Of a DNA stretch of 64,000 nucleotides, positions 7,527 to 18,889 are shown one piece after another; positions within the stretch are counted from its first letter, which is position 1; each line of letters begins with the position of its first letter. Under the pieces are notes generated by a model. That model did not search any database. It was not told the origin of the DNA and saw only the letters and a list, made by a program, of their open reading frames with translations. The translations under genes and the position numbers were made by a program. The stretch lies in contig JAOUPR010000002.1 in assembly GCA_029879725.1 (NCBI GenBank), positions 62,001 through 126,000 on the forward strand. Reading direction: 5' to 3'. The DNA is from Gemmatimonadota bacterium (GTDB lineage: Bacteria > Gemmatimonadota > Gemmatimonadetes > Longimicrobiales > Gaopeijiaceae).

Positions 7527-8378
7527 CTAGTTGATCCAGTGGATCCGGACGCTCCCGAACGCGGCGTCGAGATTGATTTCGATCCGGTACTCGGCCTCGT
7601 CCCAGTCCACGGAGTAGTACGAGTCGCCACGCTTCACCATCCCTTCCGCGTCCAGCGACGAGAGGAAGCTATCCTTCTCCAGGTGGACACCCAAGCCCTC
7701 GGGAACGTGGATATCCAGGGCGCCCATCCCGATGTCGATGTCGACGTCCATGTCCTGTCTCCACTCCCCGTCGAACCACAGGGAGACCTTCCCCACGCCC
7801 GCGTCCACGTCCAGCGAACCGGTATTGAGGTTCCCGAGTCCCCTGACCGTGAAATCGGCCGCTCCCACCTCGAAGGACGCCTCGTCCATCTCCACCGGAT
7901 TCGGCTCCGAGATGTCCACCACGGCCTCGGACGCACCGGTGGAGAGTTGGAGGTCGGTGAGCGACAGTCCCCCCAGCTCCAACTCCGCGCGGACGGCTCC
8001 GAACTCGAGCGTGAGGTCCATGGGGACTCGCCGGGAGAGCGAGAGATCCATCTCCCCTCCGGATTGGTCCCGACCCATGCGGATGGAGTGGCTCCGACCG
8101 TCGATTCCCAAACGAAGGTCGTTGCCCACGAACTCCACTTCGGGCTCGAAGGAGTCCTCGTCGTAACGGAGTTGCATCCGGTACAGGAGCCCGCCTTCGG
8201 CCGGCCGGACGTAGAACCGGCCGGCGCCGTAGGTCACGTGGACGTCCAGGTCCCGCTCTCCGGAGAGCTGGCGGGACATGGTGACCGTCTTCCAGCTCTG
8301 CGCCTCCGCCCCGGCCGCGCTCCAGACGAGCGCGGCGAGTGCCGCCCATCCCAACCTCATCCACCGCACGTCACGCAT
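7527..8378 (-). CDS. Secreted beta-rich protein, toast-rack/DUF4097-like
   Basis: This 283-residue protein has a signal peptide (MRDVRWMRLGWAALAALVWS, cleaved probably after AEAQ). It is followed by many short alternating strands such as SLSRRVPMDLTLEFGAVRAE and GVGKVSLWFDGEW. This pattern resembles the toast_rack/LiaF or DUF4097 beta-helical adhesin-like folds found in envelope-stress proteins. The ATG at 8378 overlaps the preceding stop by 8 bases (GATGCGTGA) and puts the signal peptide at the N-terminus; the same frame is open further upstream but with no family-like sequence. Its place behind a sigma/anti-sigma pair suggests a periplasmic or membrane-surface role. Fold assignment is by pattern only. 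Confidence 0.65.
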   Translation of the reverse strand: MRDVRWMRLGWAALAALVWSAAGAEAQSWKTVTMSRQLSGERDLDVHVTYGAGRFYVRPAEGGLLYRMQLRYDEDSFEPEVEFVGNDLRLGIDGRSHSIRMGRDQSGGEMDLSLSRRVPMDLTLEFGAVRAELELGGLSLTDLQLSTGASEAVVDISEPNPVEMDEASFEVGAADFTVRGLGNLNTGSLDVDAGVGKVSLWFDGEWRQDMDVDIDIGMGALDIHVPEGLGVHLEKDSFLSSLDAEGMVKRGDSYYSVDWDEAEYRIEINLDAAFGSVRIHWIN

Positions 8379-9885
8379 CGGACCTCTCCTCGTCGTCGAC
8401 TTCCTTCCATTCCGCGCCCGCGTCGAAGTCGGCGGTCGCGTAGTACTCCCTTTGCCGCCCTCCACGCGTGAGGAGGACCGCTCCGAACCCCACCAGGGTG
8501 GCCGCGGTGGTCACCGCGACGCCCACGATTCCCAGGAGCACCTGGAATACCTTCCCCAGGCCACCCAGGACGTAGAGGGCGTCGATGGCGAACCAGGCCA
8601 GCGACAGCGCCATCAGCCCCGCCGCCATCGTGTAGACCGGGTTGGCGCGTACGATCCACTCCGTATACGGGAACCGGTTGTCGGCCAGCCATTCCCCGAC
8701 GTTCCGGGACACCGCCAGGTACCCCATGATGAGCGCCGCGAGGGCCGCCAGCGGGAAGAGTGGGATCCACGCGATCATCACCGGGATCCCCACGATGGAC
8801 ACCGCGAGAGCCACGATCCCCACGACCCACACGGGGCCCATGAGCACGACCCCCGCCAGCCCCACCATGGCGGCCCGTCCCGGAGCCGCTCTCGCCGTCT
8901 CGGACACGAGCGCCATGTTGGGACCCGCGAAGGCCAGCGCCACGGCTCCGATGACCGCGAGGATCAGGAGCTTGAGCACGTCGCCGACGAGGCTCCCCAC
9001 GGCCCTGAACACGCCGCCGAAGATTCCGGAGAAGAACGACCGCTTTTCACGCCGATCCACGTTCACCGACTCCATGATCTCTCTGCGGAGCTCGCTCCTC
9101 AACCGATCCCGGAGATCGTCCTCCCCTCGAGAGTCATGGGAGAGGGCATCGACGATGTCGCCGTCCACGACTCCGTCGTGGGTATGGAGATGCGCGTTGG
9201 CCAACCGCAGGTCTCCGGTGATGTGGCCACCTTCCGGGACGTCCACGTTCCCCTCCACCACCACCAGGTCTCCGTCGAGCGTGCCGGCGATCCGCACCTG
9301 TCCCTCCACCACGATGAGCGTGCCGGACAGGGTTTCACCCGCTTCGAGATCGAAGTCCTCGTCCACCACGAGGCGGACATCACTCAGGGAGAGGTCGGAG
9401 ATGGCCTGAGCCAGCCCCACCAGGTTCTGGGAACGCCCCAGGAGCACCTCCATGAGCGCGCCTTCGCTCTCCACGCGAACCGCCGACGAGGCATTCCGCG
9501 GGTCCGCCTGCTCGACCGTGAGGGCGGCCTCCAACGAGGCGTCCAGCGTTTCGGCGAGGGTCCTGGACTCCGCGTCCAGCGTCTCGGGAGGGGCCCAGTC
9601 GCGCAGGAGGGCTCCCAGGGGACCGTCGTCCAGCGCCACGGCCTTCCCCAGGAGGGAGCGCCACTCTCTGTCCAGGTCGTCACCGGGCTCGTAGGACCCC
9701 GCCGGCGTTCCGTCGATGCGGACCTCGCCTGCGTCGAACACGATCTCCAGTCCGCCGGTATCGGAGAACTCCAGCTTCAACGAGGCCTCCGCCCGTCCCA
9801 CGGAGATCTCCTTGGAGACCACGGGACGATCCTGGGCGGAAACGCCCAGCGGGACCAGCAAGCCGAGGAGGACGAGGCCTCTCAT
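8371..9885 (-). CDS. Bactofilin-like polymer-forming membrane protein
   Basis: The 504-residue product begins with a signal peptide (MRGLVLLGLLVPLGVSAQ). A charged helical region follows. A right-handed beta-helix-like stretch (about residues 215-270: SGTLIVVEGQVRIAG, DGDLVVVEGNVDVPEG, HITGDL) resembles the bactofilin polymer-forming repeat. The C-terminal half carries several membrane segments and ends in an acidic tail (EVDDEERSDA). I chose the ATG at 9885, one base after the anti-sigma stop, because it begins the signal peptide. Similar proteins occur next to ECF sigma/anti-sigma genes; the biochemical role is unknown. Confidence 0.68.
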   Translation of the reverse strand: MRGLVLLGLLVPLGVSAQDRPVVSKEISVGRAEASLKLEFSDTGGLEIVFDAGEVRIDGTPAGSYEPGDDLDREWRSLLGKAVALDDGPLGALLRDWAPPETLDAESRTLAETLDASLEAALTVEQADPRNASSAVRVESEGALMEVLLGRSQNLVGLAQAISDLSLSDVRLVVDEDFDLEAGETLSGTLIVVEGQVRIAGTLDGDLVVVEGNVDVPEGGHITGDLRLANAHLHTHDGVVDGDIVDALSHDSRGEDDLRDRLRSELRREIMESVNVDRREKRSFFSGIFGGVFRAVGSLVGDVLKLLILAVIGAVALAFAGPNMALVSETARAAPGRAAMVGLAGVVLMGPVWVVGIVALAVSIVGIPVMIAWIPLFPLAALAALIMGYLAVSRNVGEWLADNRFPYTEWIVRANPVYTMAAGLMALSLAWFAIDALYVLGGLGKVFQVLLGIVGVAVTTAATLVGFGAVLLTRGGRQREYYATADFDAGAEWKEVDDEERSDA

Positions 9886-9886
9886 G

Positions 9887-10873
9887 TCAGTTGGAAACAC
9901 GCGCATAACGACCGTCCACACGAGGGTGGGTGAAGAGGTTCTTGTACAACACCCAGGACGCGGATACCACGGCCAGGGAGAAGAGTGCGACGCTGGCTGC
10001 CAGGGCACCCGGCGTTCCCGTGAGGGTTTCGAGCGACGCATAGAGGCGGAACACGGGCGCGCTCTGTACGGCGCCGCCTGCCAGTCCTTGCCATGCGCCG
10101 ACGGCCAGGTCCGTCAACTGCCACCACAGGAAGGAAGCCAACGATCCCGCGGTGAGCGTCGGGTGGGTGGCCAGAGTGGTCACCAGGAGCCCCACGATGA
10201 CCGCGGGCGTGAACGCGACCCCGGACGCGGCGGCCCATGCCGTACGCCTGTCCGGGAGGACGGATCCCGCCCATGCCAGGGCGCGCGCCCCCAGGGTGGG
10301 CCGCCGTACCGTGGCCACGGAGACGGAGTGCCGCGGAACCGGGACCTTCACCCGCTTCATCACCGTCTCGGCGAAGTCGGACGAAGGGGAGAGCGTGTCG
10401 AGGTCCTCGAGACGGACCAACAGGTTCCGCCACTCCGCCGCCTCGGCGCCGCATGCCCCGCACGCGTCCAGGTGTGTCTGGACCCGGGCGAGGCCACGGG
10501 CGGGGAGAAGCCCCTCCACGAAGTCCTGGAGCGTCCCCGGGTCGATGTGTCCGGATGGGCCGCCGGTCCCTTGCGCCGGCGCGGGGAGCAGGCCCCTGAT
10601 CACGGCCTGGACCCGCGCGGCGAGCGAAGGAGCGCGCGCCGGCCGGACACCGGCCATCACCCGGGCGGAGAACTCCGCCGAAGGCGCCATCATCGGGAGT
10701 TCATCCAGACCGGCGAAGAGAACCCTCCAGCTGCCGAGCTCGGTGGCGCACTCCTCGCAGGAGGCGAGATGAGCCTCGCACCTCTCCCGTTCGGAGAGAG
10801 CGATCTCCCCGTCCACGAGCGCCTGGAACTGCTCTGCGCCGAGGTGACCGGGTCCGGGTTTATGCTTCAACAT
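9887..10873 (-). CDS. Anti-sigma factor with two zf-HC2 zinc fingers and membrane segments
   Basis: This 328-residue protein has two copies of the zinc-binding anti-sigma signature HxxxCxxC: H35-C39-C42 and H134-C138-C141. Each is set in a similar context (acidic helix, HLxxC, then SWR or EWR). After a basic linker come two clear hydrophobic segments (about residues 212-232 and 285-310), so the zinc fingers should be cytoplasmic and the C-terminus membrane-anchored. It sits 157 bases downstream of the ECF sigma gene in the same direction, with its own ECF-like promoter in that gap. Single-finger anti-sigma factors are the norm; the duplication is the odd feature here. Confidence 0.82.
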   Translation of the reverse strand: MLKHKPGPGHLGAEQFQALVDGEIALSERERCEAHLASCEECATELGSWRVLFAGLDELPMMAPSAEFSARVMAGVRPARAPSLAARVQAVIRGLLPAPAQGTGGPSGHIDPGTLQDFVEGLLPARGLARVQTHLDACGACGAEAAEWRNLLVRLEDLDTLSPSSDFAETVMKRVKVPVPRHSVSVATVRRPTLGARALAWAGSVLPDRRTAWAAASGVAFTPAVIVGLLVTTLATHPTLTAGSLASFLWWQLTDLAVGAWQGLAGGAVQSAPVFRLYASLETLTGTPGALAASVALFSLAVVSASWVLYKNLFTHPRVDGRYARVSN

Positions 10874-10932: not shown

Positions 10933-10960
10933 ACTACGGGCCCGCATCCGCTGAAGTTTC
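10933..10960 (-). promoter_or_regulatory. ECF-type promoter-like element before the anti-sigma gene
   Basis: Read on the minus strand, GAAACT (10960-10955) is followed after 16 bases by CGTAGT (10938-10933). Same hexamers and same spacing occur before the sigma gene and before the M48 peptidase gene. Transcription would start about 50 bases before the anti-sigma ATG at 10873. Confidence 0.55.
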
Positions 10961-11030: not shown

Positions 11031-11702
11031 TCATGCCAGGTGCCTCAGCCGTTCCTTCAACTCGCCGCGGGCCCGGTGGAGGTACGTCTTCACGGTACCC
11101 AGGGGGAGGTCCATGATCTCCGCGATCTCGTCGTACGCGTACCCCTCCACGTGGCGCAGGAGGATGACCGTCCGATACTCGCTGCGGAGCTCTCCGATGG
11201 CCTCCTCGATCTCCCCGCCGAGTTCCTTGTGCTCGAGACGTTCCTCGGGATTCTCGTCGGTCGACACGACGACCACGCTCGTCTGCTGCACCTCGTCGGC
11301 CGTGCCGGCGTGGGGTGACCCGTGGATGGAAACCGTGTTCAGCTTCTTCTTCCGCAGATGATCGATGGTGTGGTTGTTCGCGATCTTGAAGATCCAATTG
11401 CTGAACTTGTACTTGGGGTCGTACGAGCCGATGGCGTTGAAGGCGCGGATGAACGCCTCCTGAGAGAGGTCTTCGGCCAGGGTGCGGTCCCGCACCATCC
11501 GGTACACCAGGGAGAATACCGGGCGCTCGTAGCGGGAGAGGAGTTGGCGGAACGCGCCCTCGTGCCCCTTGGCGGCGAGAGCGGCCAACTCACGATCGTC
11601 CGCTTGCGTGTGATCGAATGCGGGCAGAGGTCGCGCTTCCGGGTGCGGGTGGGTGTACGGCCCGAGGGCGGTACCGGACAAAGAAGCGGTGAGGGTGGTC
11701 AT
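11031..11702 (-). CDS. ECF RNA polymerase sigma factor (RpoE-like)
   Basis: This 223-residue sigma-70-family protein has sigma-2 (DLSQEAFIRAFNAIGSYDPK, FSNWIFKIANN, DHLRKKK; about residues 80-125) and sigma-4 (LRSEYRTVILLRHVEGYAYD, IAEIMDLPLGTVKTYLHRAR; about 165-210). An extra N-terminal tail of about 35 residues is rich in proline and histidine. The ATG at 11702 lies only 8 bases after the -10 of the ECF-like element at 11711-11738, so its mRNA could be leaderless. The downstream anti-sigma, bactofilin-like and toast-rack-like genes suggest control of an envelope function. Confidence 0.92.
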   Translation of the reverse strand: MTTLTASLSGTALGPYTHPHPEARPLPAFDHTQADDRELAALAAKGHEGAFRQLLSRYERPVFSLVYRMVRDRTLAEDLSQEAFIRAFNAIGSYDPKYKFSNWIFKIANNHTIDHLRKKKLNTVSIHGSPHAGTADEVQQTSVVVVSTDENPEERLEHKELGGEIEEAIGELRSEYRTVILLRHVEGYAYDEIAEIMDLPLGTVKTYLHRARGELKERLRHLA

Positions 11703-11710
11703 GGACCCGC

Positions 11711-11738
11711 TCTACGGGCGGCCCGGTACTCCGGTTTC
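11711..11738 (-). promoter_or_regulatory. ECF-type promoter-like element before the sigma gene
   Basis: On the minus strand, GAAACC (11738-11733), 16 bases, then CGTAGA (11716-11711). Identical hexamers and spacing recur at 18862-18889. It implies autoregulation, with a start site at or just before the sigma factor ATG. Confidence 0.55.
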
Positions 11739-17747: not shown

Positions 17748-18761
17748 TCAGGTGCCCGACCGGCGGAAGCCTCCCATGAAGTCCTCTCCCATCCGCTTGG
17801 CGGCGTCCGTCATCTGGTTGAGGAAGTCCTTGGCGCCCTCCGCGTAGGCCTGGGCCGCTTCACGGAGATCTTCCTGGTAGGGCCGGTTGGGCTCGCCCCT
17901 GCGGGTGTACTCGCCACGGAGGATCCGATCGTACGCACCACTCTCGATCCATTCCCTCAGCTCGCTCACGCGGAGGACGTAGAAGGGGTGCGTGGTCCCC
18001 ATGAGGTTGAGGATCTTGAAGACGTGGTCGGCCACGTCGCCGGTGGTCCGGTACTCCTCGGCCTGGACGATGAACTCCTGGAGACTGGTTTCGTCGGAGC
18101 TTCCGCCACCGGCCATCTTCAGCATGGTGCGCATGACCACGTCGGGGTCCTGAACCGCCAGGAGCCCGGCTCGGTCGCACGACAACTCGCTCTTGCGGTG
18201 CCATTCCAGGAGCGCGACGAGGATGGCGCGTGCCGCCAACCCCACGATGGGGAATCCCATGTTGGCGAGGTTCACCAGGAGGACCATCATCGTCTTGTAG
18301 AGGACGTGGTCGCTCATGATGTGACCCAGCTCGTGCCCCATGATGTAGGACAGTTCCTCGTCGTCCAGGAGGTTCACCGTCCCGGAGTTGAGGATGATGA
18401 AGGGCTGGTCCATCCCGTACGCGCCCGCGTTCACGATGGGCGTCTGGGAGACGAAGAGGGGGTAGTGCGCCGGCGCATCGAGGGTCTTGAGCACGTCCTG
18501 GTAGAGCGCGTGGACGCGGCCGAACTGGCTCGGACTCACCCGTACGGCGTTCGCCTGGAAGGCGAGGCGGATGGGCTTTTCGCCGAAGAACCCGAACAGC
18601 TTCTTCAGGATCTCGTCGAACAGGGGGAGCTTCCGGAGTGCCTCGAGGGCGGCCCGGTCCGCGGGGTGCTCCCAGGATCGGGGCGCGATATCCGTGAGGA
18701 TGCGGTGGGCGCGAGCGTCTCCGCCCGGCTCTCCCTCGGTACGGTCCTGGTCGTCGGCCAT
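17748..18761 (-). CDS. M48-family zinc metallopeptidase (HtpX/Ste24-like)
   Basis: This 337-residue protein carries the zinc motif HELGH (residues 143-147), the preceding NAGAYGMDQPFIILNSGTV strand segment, and a later SELSCDRAGL motif (about 191-200) that supplies the third ligand. A hydrophobic patch (about 155-185) may associate with the membrane, but no signal peptide is seen, so it is likely cytoplasmic-face. M48 peptidases often work in membrane protein quality control. GAGGAAG lies 5 bases before the start. An ECF-type promoter-like element identical to that of the local sigma gene lies about 100 bases upstream, linking it to envelope stress. purD follows after 40 bases. Confidence 0.85.
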   Translation of the reverse strand: MADDQDRTEGEPGGDARAHRILTDIAPRSWEHPADRAALEALRKLPLFDEILKKLFGFFGEKPIRLAFQANAVRVSPSQFGRVHALYQDVLKTLDAPAHYPLFVSQTPIVNAGAYGMDQPFIILNSGTVNLLDDEELSYIMGHELGHIMSDHVLYKTMMVLLVNLANMGFPIVGLAARAILVALLEWHRKSELSCDRAGLLAVQDPDVVMRTMLKMAGGGSSDETSLQEFIVQAEEYRTTGDVADHVFKILNLMGTTHPFYVLRVSELREWIESGAYDRILRGEYTRRGEPNRPYQEDLREAAQAYAEGAKDFLNQMTDAAKRMGEDFMGGFRRSGT

Positions 18762-18861: not shown

Positions 18862-18889
18862 TCTACGGTCGGAACGTCCCCAGGGTTTC
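18862..18889 (-). promoter_or_regulatory. ECF-type promoter-like element before the M48 peptidase gene
   Basis: On the minus strand, GAAACC (18889-18884), a 16-base spacer, then CGTAGA (18867-18862). Both hexamers and the spacing match the element before the ECF sigma gene exactly. The implied 5' leader to the ATG at 18761 is about 95 bases. Confidence 0.55.

Follow-up and report, generated by a model that had tools for sequence, protein, structure and literature searches.

In the usual picture of ECF regulation, an anti-sigma factor offers one inhibitor domain, and that domain holds one sigma factor. ChrR, a soluble protein, carries the domain together with a cupin sensor. In class I anti-sigma domains (ASDs), helix 1 contacts region 4 of the sigma factor and helix 4 contacts region 2, and in E. 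coli RseA residue D11 pairs with R149 and R178 of RpoE (in the part of PMC7406223 covered here). Among solved structures, the sigma factor closest to the one described below is B. subtilis SigW, whose membrane anti-sigma factor RsiW has a single transmembrane segment and the ligands C3, H30, C34 and C37 (in the part of PMC5358783 covered here).

The window, as we call the whole 64,000-nucleotide stretch of DNA that was analysed, encodes a membrane anti-sigma factor of 328 aa (9887-10873, minus strand; recognised by ORF translation and zf-HC2 matches). This protein has two ASDs in place of the one per protein that is expected, an expectation that is not itself a defining criterion of class I membership. 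Two conserved ASD modules, about one cognate sigma per genome, gene order and a promoter-like motif recur among its relatives. Our preferred reading, in which we place roughly even confidence, is that the protein is a two-site membrane trap that would hold copies of one SigW-like envelope-stress ECF sigma factor.

A Duplicated Anti-Sigma Domain

Module 1 spans residues 10 to 78 (10640-10846, minus strand), with ligands H10, H35, C39 and C42, a helix-1 acid at D21, and helix 4 at about residues 66 to 74. Module 2 spans residues 109 to 177 (10343-10549, minus strand), with ligands H109, H134, C138 and C141, a helix-1 acid at E120, and helix 4 at about residues 165 to 174. An earlier note on this DNA had claimed two HxxxCxxC modules of similar sequence followed by membrane segments, and these features are present: HLASCEEC starts at residue 35 and HLDACGAC at residue 134. 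It had missed the fourth ligand of each module, H10 or H109, which lies 25 residues N-terminal of the motif His, and also the extension of the repeat into helix 4 ('APSAEF..RVM' in module 1, 'SPSSDF..TVM' in module 2). Because the repeat includes helix 4, the duplicated unit is a complete ASD of about 70 residues. The resulting zinc site pattern in each module is Hx24Hx3Cx2C, spaced as in ChrR, and the ZAS-family ligand pattern [H/C]x(n)Hx3Cx2C is likewise found in both. Profiles of the zinc-type modules begin at ChrR residue 6, its first zinc ligand.

Statistical comparisons agree with the motifs. Pfam zf-HC2 matches both modules above its curated cut-off of 22.2 bits (31.1 and 26.3) and gives the full-length protein 47.2 bits over 2 stretches; across the window's genome, this profile gives 7 matches, spread over 6 proteins. 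When the two halves of the protein are aligned locally, the score is 119, versus a best of 53 among 2000 full shuffles and a best of 74 among 2000 shuffles in which the motif H, C and C were kept fixed. The program hhalign matches a profile of 26 module-1 sequences to one of 26 module-2 sequences in 72 of 73 columns (99.9%, E 2.2e-33). A chance likeness of the two motifs is ruled out by the shuffles and hhalign. At the level of sequence, each module is confirmed as a complete class I ASD with a predicted four-ligand zinc site.

The linker between the modules (residues 79 to 108; 10550-10639, minus strand) is of low conservation and has one predicted helix, at residues 84 to 95. Across loci, successive modules lie 65 to 130 residues apart from start to start (median 92), the lowest spacings being those of partial repeats and the spacings between full modules running from about 71 upward. 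The membrane part (residues 210 to 314; 9932-10246, minus strand) has, in the topology we infer, helices at 210-236 and 288-314 with a hydrophobic stretch between them. AlphaFold2 places helices at 210-236, 242-268, 273-285 and 288-314, C-terminal of the modules as had been claimed, and hydropathy exceeds 1.4 in 19-residue windows with starts at 211-225 and 284-296.

Predicted Fold of the Modules

The AlphaFold2 model of the 328-aa protein was built from 14 sequences and has a mean pLDDT of 73.2 and a pTM of 0.28. Its helices fall at residues 13-21, 26-38, 40-57 and 66-74 in module 1 and at 112-119, 125-137, 139-158 and 165-174 in module 2. Both module cores include 10-residue blocks with pLDDT above 90; the mutual placement of the two modules is undefined because the pTM is low. 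The earlier note had named a module lacking the fold as a finding that would count against duplication. In the model, each module is predicted to have all of helices H1 to H4 (residues 13-74 and 112-174) and matches solved ASDs.

In a Foldseek search of the PDB with E up to 10, 20 of 21 rows are anti-sigma chains, from 7 entries (RsiW, ChrR with two entries, RslA, MucA, RskA and DdvA), at E-values that are weak (best 0.16, none below 0.001). VIA-align superimposes module 2 on ChrR with a Z of 9.7 over 57 residues, and module 1 on RsiW with a Z of 6.3 over 70 residues, helix 4 included; such Z values are common for helical bundles and alone are not decisive for small ones. Against the PDB, the module-1 profile matches DdvA (3.5e-7) and RsiW (4e-6), and the module-2 profile matches RsiW (2.5e-8) and ChrR (7.9e-5), whereas phmmer with the sequence of module 2 alone finds no ASD in the PDB. 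The class I fold, a three-helix bundle plus helix 4 homologous to RseA, RsiW, ChrR and RskA, is found twice. Together, the H1 to H4 models, the repeat of helix 4, and the profile and fold matches indicate that the whole sigma-binding domain has been duplicated.

Relatives with three modules or without zinc ligands give less distinct results. The AlphaFold2 model of a three-module protein is poor (mean pLDDT 54.5, 4 rows); the helix pattern appears in it three times. Two comparisons link the zinc-free modules with the zinc type: hhalign of module 2 (99.15%) and the module HMM. In the PDB, the zinc-free module-1 profile finds one weak RslA match (0.25) amid unrelated chains, and the zinc-free module-2 profile finds no ASD match.

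Distribution and History of Module Number

The family search covered 121 genomes; at E<=1e-8, 89 of them had a match and 32 had none. Five of the 32 (G051, G055, G060, G061 and G073) matched the profile later and stand outside the locus set; G022 was added. The set comprises 102 loci, 91 of them in the window's own family, f1 (90 genomes), and 11 in f2 and f3, its sister families. Because many of the loci share ancestry, counts over them are not counts of independent events. By module profile, f1 divides into 79 loci with two full modules, 8 with three (all in genus g6) and 4 with one, a contig-edge fragment (L069) being counted among these four. All 11 loci of f2 and f3 have one ASD. Both modules are conserved across most of f1, a point the earlier note had missed.

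A survey of 295 Gemmatimonadota genomes, with at most 7 candidates scored per genome, found a match in 223. Outside f1, the proteins among the matches listed have one module and at most a membrane part, in frames mostly of 200 to 260 aa. Similarly, when 11 genomes (three of f1) were scanned with zf-HC2, the sole case of two matches in one frame, out of 53 matches, was the f1 orthologue in G004. Among named relatives, 18 of 19 loci lie in metagenome assemblies labelled Gemmatimonadetes, Gemmatimonadota or orders therein; the one exception is a deltaproteobacterial assembly, with a weak match of a single module.

A few loci are unusual. Two from genus g19 (L022 and L077) have a partial third repeat after module 2, with only the end of helix 3 and helix 4, which is a fragment of a further duplication. 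In genome G077 the anti-sigma gene is in two pieces, one with the start of the gene beside the sigma gene (L137) and the rest far off beside other operon genes (L066), by either a rearrangement or an assembly artefact. Genome G059 has two complete loci, each with a sigma and a two-module anti-sigma gene (L088 and L104); one is zinc-free like the rest of its genus, g37, and the other, the zinc-type L088, groups with genus g12. Here, horizontal transfer or a mixed assembly would account for the double locus.

A tree of the adjacent sigma factors (96 rows, a quick method with SH-aLRT support only) requires 3 changes in module number. The gain from one to two modules falls after the split of genera g41 and g42 (support 90), the gain from two to three in g6 (support 80), and the third change is probably a return to one module in g47 (L106), which has a long branch and hence an unsure place on this tree. 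On the same tree, the absence of all complete zinc sites is 1 change (support 92), covering the 17 rows whose sigma is adjacent. A tree of the modules themselves (120 of 199 module rows, 69 columns) is poorly resolved, with unsure deep forks. In it, copies of module 1 mostly group apart from those of module 2, and the single modules of f2 and f3 lie near module 2, which suggests, from sequence, that the membrane-near copy may be the original one.

The Adjacent Sigma Factor

The gene at 11031-11702 (minus strand) encodes a SigW-like ECF sigma factor of 223 aa. It matches PF04542 and PF08281 above cut-off and has Sigma70 regions 2 and 4 only, as an ECF factor does. Its best NCBIfam match is SigW, at 166.1 bits against an equivalog cut-off of 209, so it is a SigW-like relative and not an equivalog. 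Its best solved match is SigW chain 5wuq_A (1.3e-33), and B. subtilis SigW is, by these searches, its nearest relative.

A sigma gene lies directly upstream of the anti-sigma gene in 96 of 102 loci. Two of the other six are at contig ends, and L066, L097, L098 and L100 have their sigma elsewhere in the genome. In the last three, all from g37, the block of anti-sigma, bactofilin-like and LiaF-like genes stands apart from its sigma gene, which by eye sits beside a ubiE-like gene and other familiar neighbours. Residues R183 and R212 of the sigma factor are presumably the counterparts of RpoE R149 and R178, as judged by matching the motif to the RpoE sequence; R212 is kept in 96 of 96 loci and R183 in 86 of 96. 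That the protein would be the anti-sigma factor of this sigma, as the earlier note had assumed, is by all signs right. A mirror-tree comparison with the bactofilin-like gene as control (50 of 70 loci, near-identical sigmas dropped, zinc-free ones included) leaves no residual link between either module and the sigma when the other module and the control gene are accounted for (partial r -0.13 and 0.11); it does not distinguish the modules and gives no support for binding by either of them.

Zinc Ligands and Sigma-Contact Surfaces

Among the 79 two-module loci, the ligand set is complete in both modules in 55, in neither in 20, in module 2 only in 4 and in module 1 only in 0. One of the four with an incomplete module 1 is L066, in which the missing first ligand is not a true loss because the gene is split from its start; its second His is absent as well. 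The 20 loci without ligands form a clade of genera g37, g13 and g23 in which both domains are retained.

Conservation of the putative contact residues was counted in 56 zinc-type loci (modules 1 and 2) and in the 20 zinc-free loci, with L069, L088, L022 and L077 left out. The helix-1 acidic residue is present in 53 of 56 zinc-type loci in module 1 and 54 of 56 in module 2, in 20 of 20 zinc-free loci in each module, and in 8 of 8 g6 loci in each of three modules. The F/L of helix 4 is invariant (56/56 and 56/56 in modules 1 and 2 of the zinc type, 20/20 and 20/20 in the zinc-free loci), and the V/I and M/L after it persist in 54-56 of 56 zinc-type and 17-20 of 20 zinc-free loci. The R/K three residues past the helix-4 F is found in 50 of 56 loci in module 1 and 37 of 56 in module 2, where the 328-aa protein has T170. 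A decayed second module was considered as well, and is ruled out by the conserved residues and the ligand counts.

Since the helix-1 acid and the helix-4 motif are kept in both modules, both appear to retain the features for holding a sigma factor, with or without zinc. Judged by their evolution, the domains can be retained without zinc, which is dispensable in that sense.

A Promoter-Like Motif and Neighbouring Genes

SigW-type promoter-like sites of the form GAAAC-N17-CGTA lie on the minus strand 5' of the anti-sigma gene (10935-10960) and 5' of the sigma gene (11713-11738). A third copy of the motif (18864-18889, minus strand) precedes a gene for an M48 peptidase (17748-18761, minus strand; PF01435, 5.8e-25), which is likely to be a member of the regulon. 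These 3 sites in the 64,000-nt window compare with 0.08 expected, and the 18 in the window's genome with 2 for the pattern read backwards. Genes 3' of the 18 sites (L149-L166) include, by eye, FtsX/MacB-like permeases, TolC-like and DUF305-like proteins, and the M48 peptidase. They have an envelope-stress flavour, as judged by a Pfam scan for the peptidase only and by eye for the others.

The site in front of the anti-sigma gene is conserved. In 96 of 100 loci the strict motif occurs in the 250 nt that precede module 1, and on the opposite strand in 0 of 100; when spacers of 12 to 22 were allowed, 97 sites had a spacer of 17 and 1 a spacer of 22. The relaxed motif is found between sigma and anti-sigma genes in 94 of 96 loci. 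Upstream of the sigma gene it occurs in 68 of 96 loci. For comparison, it turns up in 3 of 96 reverse complements, in 36 of 1920 shuffles and in 134 of 1877 windows drawn at random from these loci, a set in which further true sites may lie. Only 1 of 17 zinc-free loci has this sigma-upstream motif, and the three g37 loci with a separate sigma have no motif before the sigma gene. Where the sigma gene is elsewhere, 3 of 4 loci (those of g37) still carry a site 5' of the anti-sigma gene. The other one is L066, with its split gene, where a site precedes the start piece beside the sigma (L137).

The B. subtilis SigW consensus is TGAAAC-N16,17-CGTA (in the part of PMC2375139 covered here), and the motif fits it except for the first T. 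From the conservation of the motif and the likeness of the sigma to SigW, we infer that the sigma factor would read this motif. Feedback is likely, since 96 of 100 loci have the motif ahead of the anti-sigma gene.

Two genes follow on the same strand. The first (8371-9885, minus strand, with 9885 a chosen ATG; searches used 8371-9933) encodes a bactofilin-like extracytoplasmic and membrane protein with a Pfam match of 23.8 bits, below the cut-off of 27.9. By eye, this protein has a beta-helix, an apparent signal peptide and later membrane helices. A same-strand homologue adjoins the anti-sigma gene in 100 of 102 loci. The second (7527-8465, minus strand) encodes an envelope protein of the toast_rack/LiaF-like type, assigned by Pfam; it is reached in 70 of 102 loci, many flanks being too short to include it.

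Models for Two Modules on One Chain

The evidence above strongly suggests that there are two sigma-binding sites per chain. In the trap we favor, each ASD would grip one copy of the neighbouring SigW-like sigma, helix 1 on region 4 and helix 4 on region 2, so that two copies might be held at once and the g6 proteins would be three-site traps. Zinc would merely stabilise each domain. An envelope signal would act via the membrane part, and probably also via the bactofilin-like and LiaF-like proteins, to release the sigma. The released factor would then transcribe its own gene, envelope genes and, from a separate promoter, the gene of its inhibitor, closing a negative feedback loop.

The modules are, by several features, not strictly equal, and this leaves a real if minor chance that only one of them holds the sigma, the other acting as a spacer, associating with itself, or docking a protease, RNA polymerase or products of the operon. 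A single module with incomplete ligands is always module 1 (4 of 4, one of them the split gene); helix 3, another of the contact helices, varies more in module 2 (mean entropy 2.23 versus 1.60 in module 1); and the two modules separate in the poorly resolved tree, with the f2 and f3 singles near module 2. Yet the helix-1 acid and the helix-4 core are kept at similar rates in both, the mean column entropies are 1.84 (helix 4) and 1.61 (helix 1) for module 1 versus 1.60 and 1.73 for module 2, and zinc has been lost in 20 loci without the loss of either domain.

A smaller probability attaches to a split grip, in which both modules would wrap one sigma, one giving the helices that bind region 4 and the other the helix 4 that binds region 2. 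The contacts of an ASD are separable in this way, helix 1 on one region and helix 4 on the other (in the part of PMC7406223 covered here), and the linker would permit it. Such an arrangement predicts, however, the decay of helix 1 in one module and of helix 4 in the other, and neither is seen; in addition, the spacing of the modules varies widely, more like that of independent beads.

The earlier note had proposed that two modules could hold two sigma factors. Partnerless ECF-type sigmas probably do exist in the window's genome, which has 24 Sigma70_r4_2 matches, 21 above cut-off, versus 6 zf-HC2 proteins. However, a search there for a second partner gave 11 further matches to the cognate sigma and no close paralogue among them: the best-ranked of the 11 has 34% identity, and the maximum is 38%. 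At E<=1e-30 there is one match per genome in 23 of 23 genomes, four of which have three-module proteins. Of 8 further genomes, 7 have one cognate sigma, and the two in G059 each stand beside their own two-module anti-sigma gene. Nor did tblastn find another sigma copy nearby in the four loci with a sigma elsewhere (L066, L097, L098 and L100). One cognate sigma in 30 of 31 genomes argues against two different partners, making that form of the proposal very unlikely; two copies of the same sigma, as in the two-site trap, is the best reading of it.

The note's other suggestion was that the modules sense two signals. Taken as a pair of zinc or redox sensors, each with its own signal or joined in an AND gate, it is the least probable of all, for although some zinc anti-sigma proteins such as RsrA respond via the zinc site, RsiW, the nearest solved relative, still holds SigW when zinc-free and with its motif oxidised (both in the part of PMC5358783 covered here), and 20 of 79 two-module loci (the g37/g13/g23 clade, one change on the sigma tree, which includes 17 of its 20 loci) lack any zinc ligand in either module while keeping both domains, the helix-1 acid and the helix-4 motif. 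Zinc sensing in the members that do bear the ligands is compatible with the zinc-free clade.

Comparison with Known Systems

A literature search for tandem or double anti-sigma domains gave nothing among the matches listed, most subscription journals being outside its scope, and the part of PMC7406223 covered here has no hit for tandem, duplicated or two ASDs. That reference survey took a single hit from each protein, the one that scored highest (in the same part), and surveys of this design would not see tandem domains.

The two-site trap we propose resembles SigW/RsiW of B. subtilis: SigW is the closest solved sigma, and RsiW, a membrane zinc-ASD anti-sigma factor, is the best solved match of the module-2 profile (2.5e-8). 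RsiW has one ASD and one membrane segment, whereas the 328-aa protein has two ASDs, at least two membrane helices and a His as first ligand. The fold of each module is common to the class I ASDs of ChrR, RslA, RseA and RskA; the solved chains of this class that were matched have a single ASD, in contrast to the two found here.

A further comparison is with the 11 single-ASD orthologues of f2 and f3 (L025-L027, L029-L031 and L033-L037). They share the orthologous sigma upstream, the relaxed motif before the anti-sigma gene (11/11) and the bactofilin-like neighbour (11/11). They differ in having one module, in frames of 210 to 251 aa in 9 of 11, the other two being longer by running on upstream.

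Against this background, the valency of an anti-sigma factor might be an evolvable control knob, set at one, two, three and probably back to one while sigma, motif and gene order stay constant, an idea we put forward tentatively and at somewhat less than even confidence. If it is true, multivalent traps would set the threshold and the sharpness of an envelope stress response. Because domain number runs from one through two to three on a constant block with one sigma, the effect of valency is testable in natural variants. In the same way, the clade that has no complete zinc site offers a natural means to ask whether the zinc of a membrane anti-sigma factor acts as a sensor or only supports the fold.
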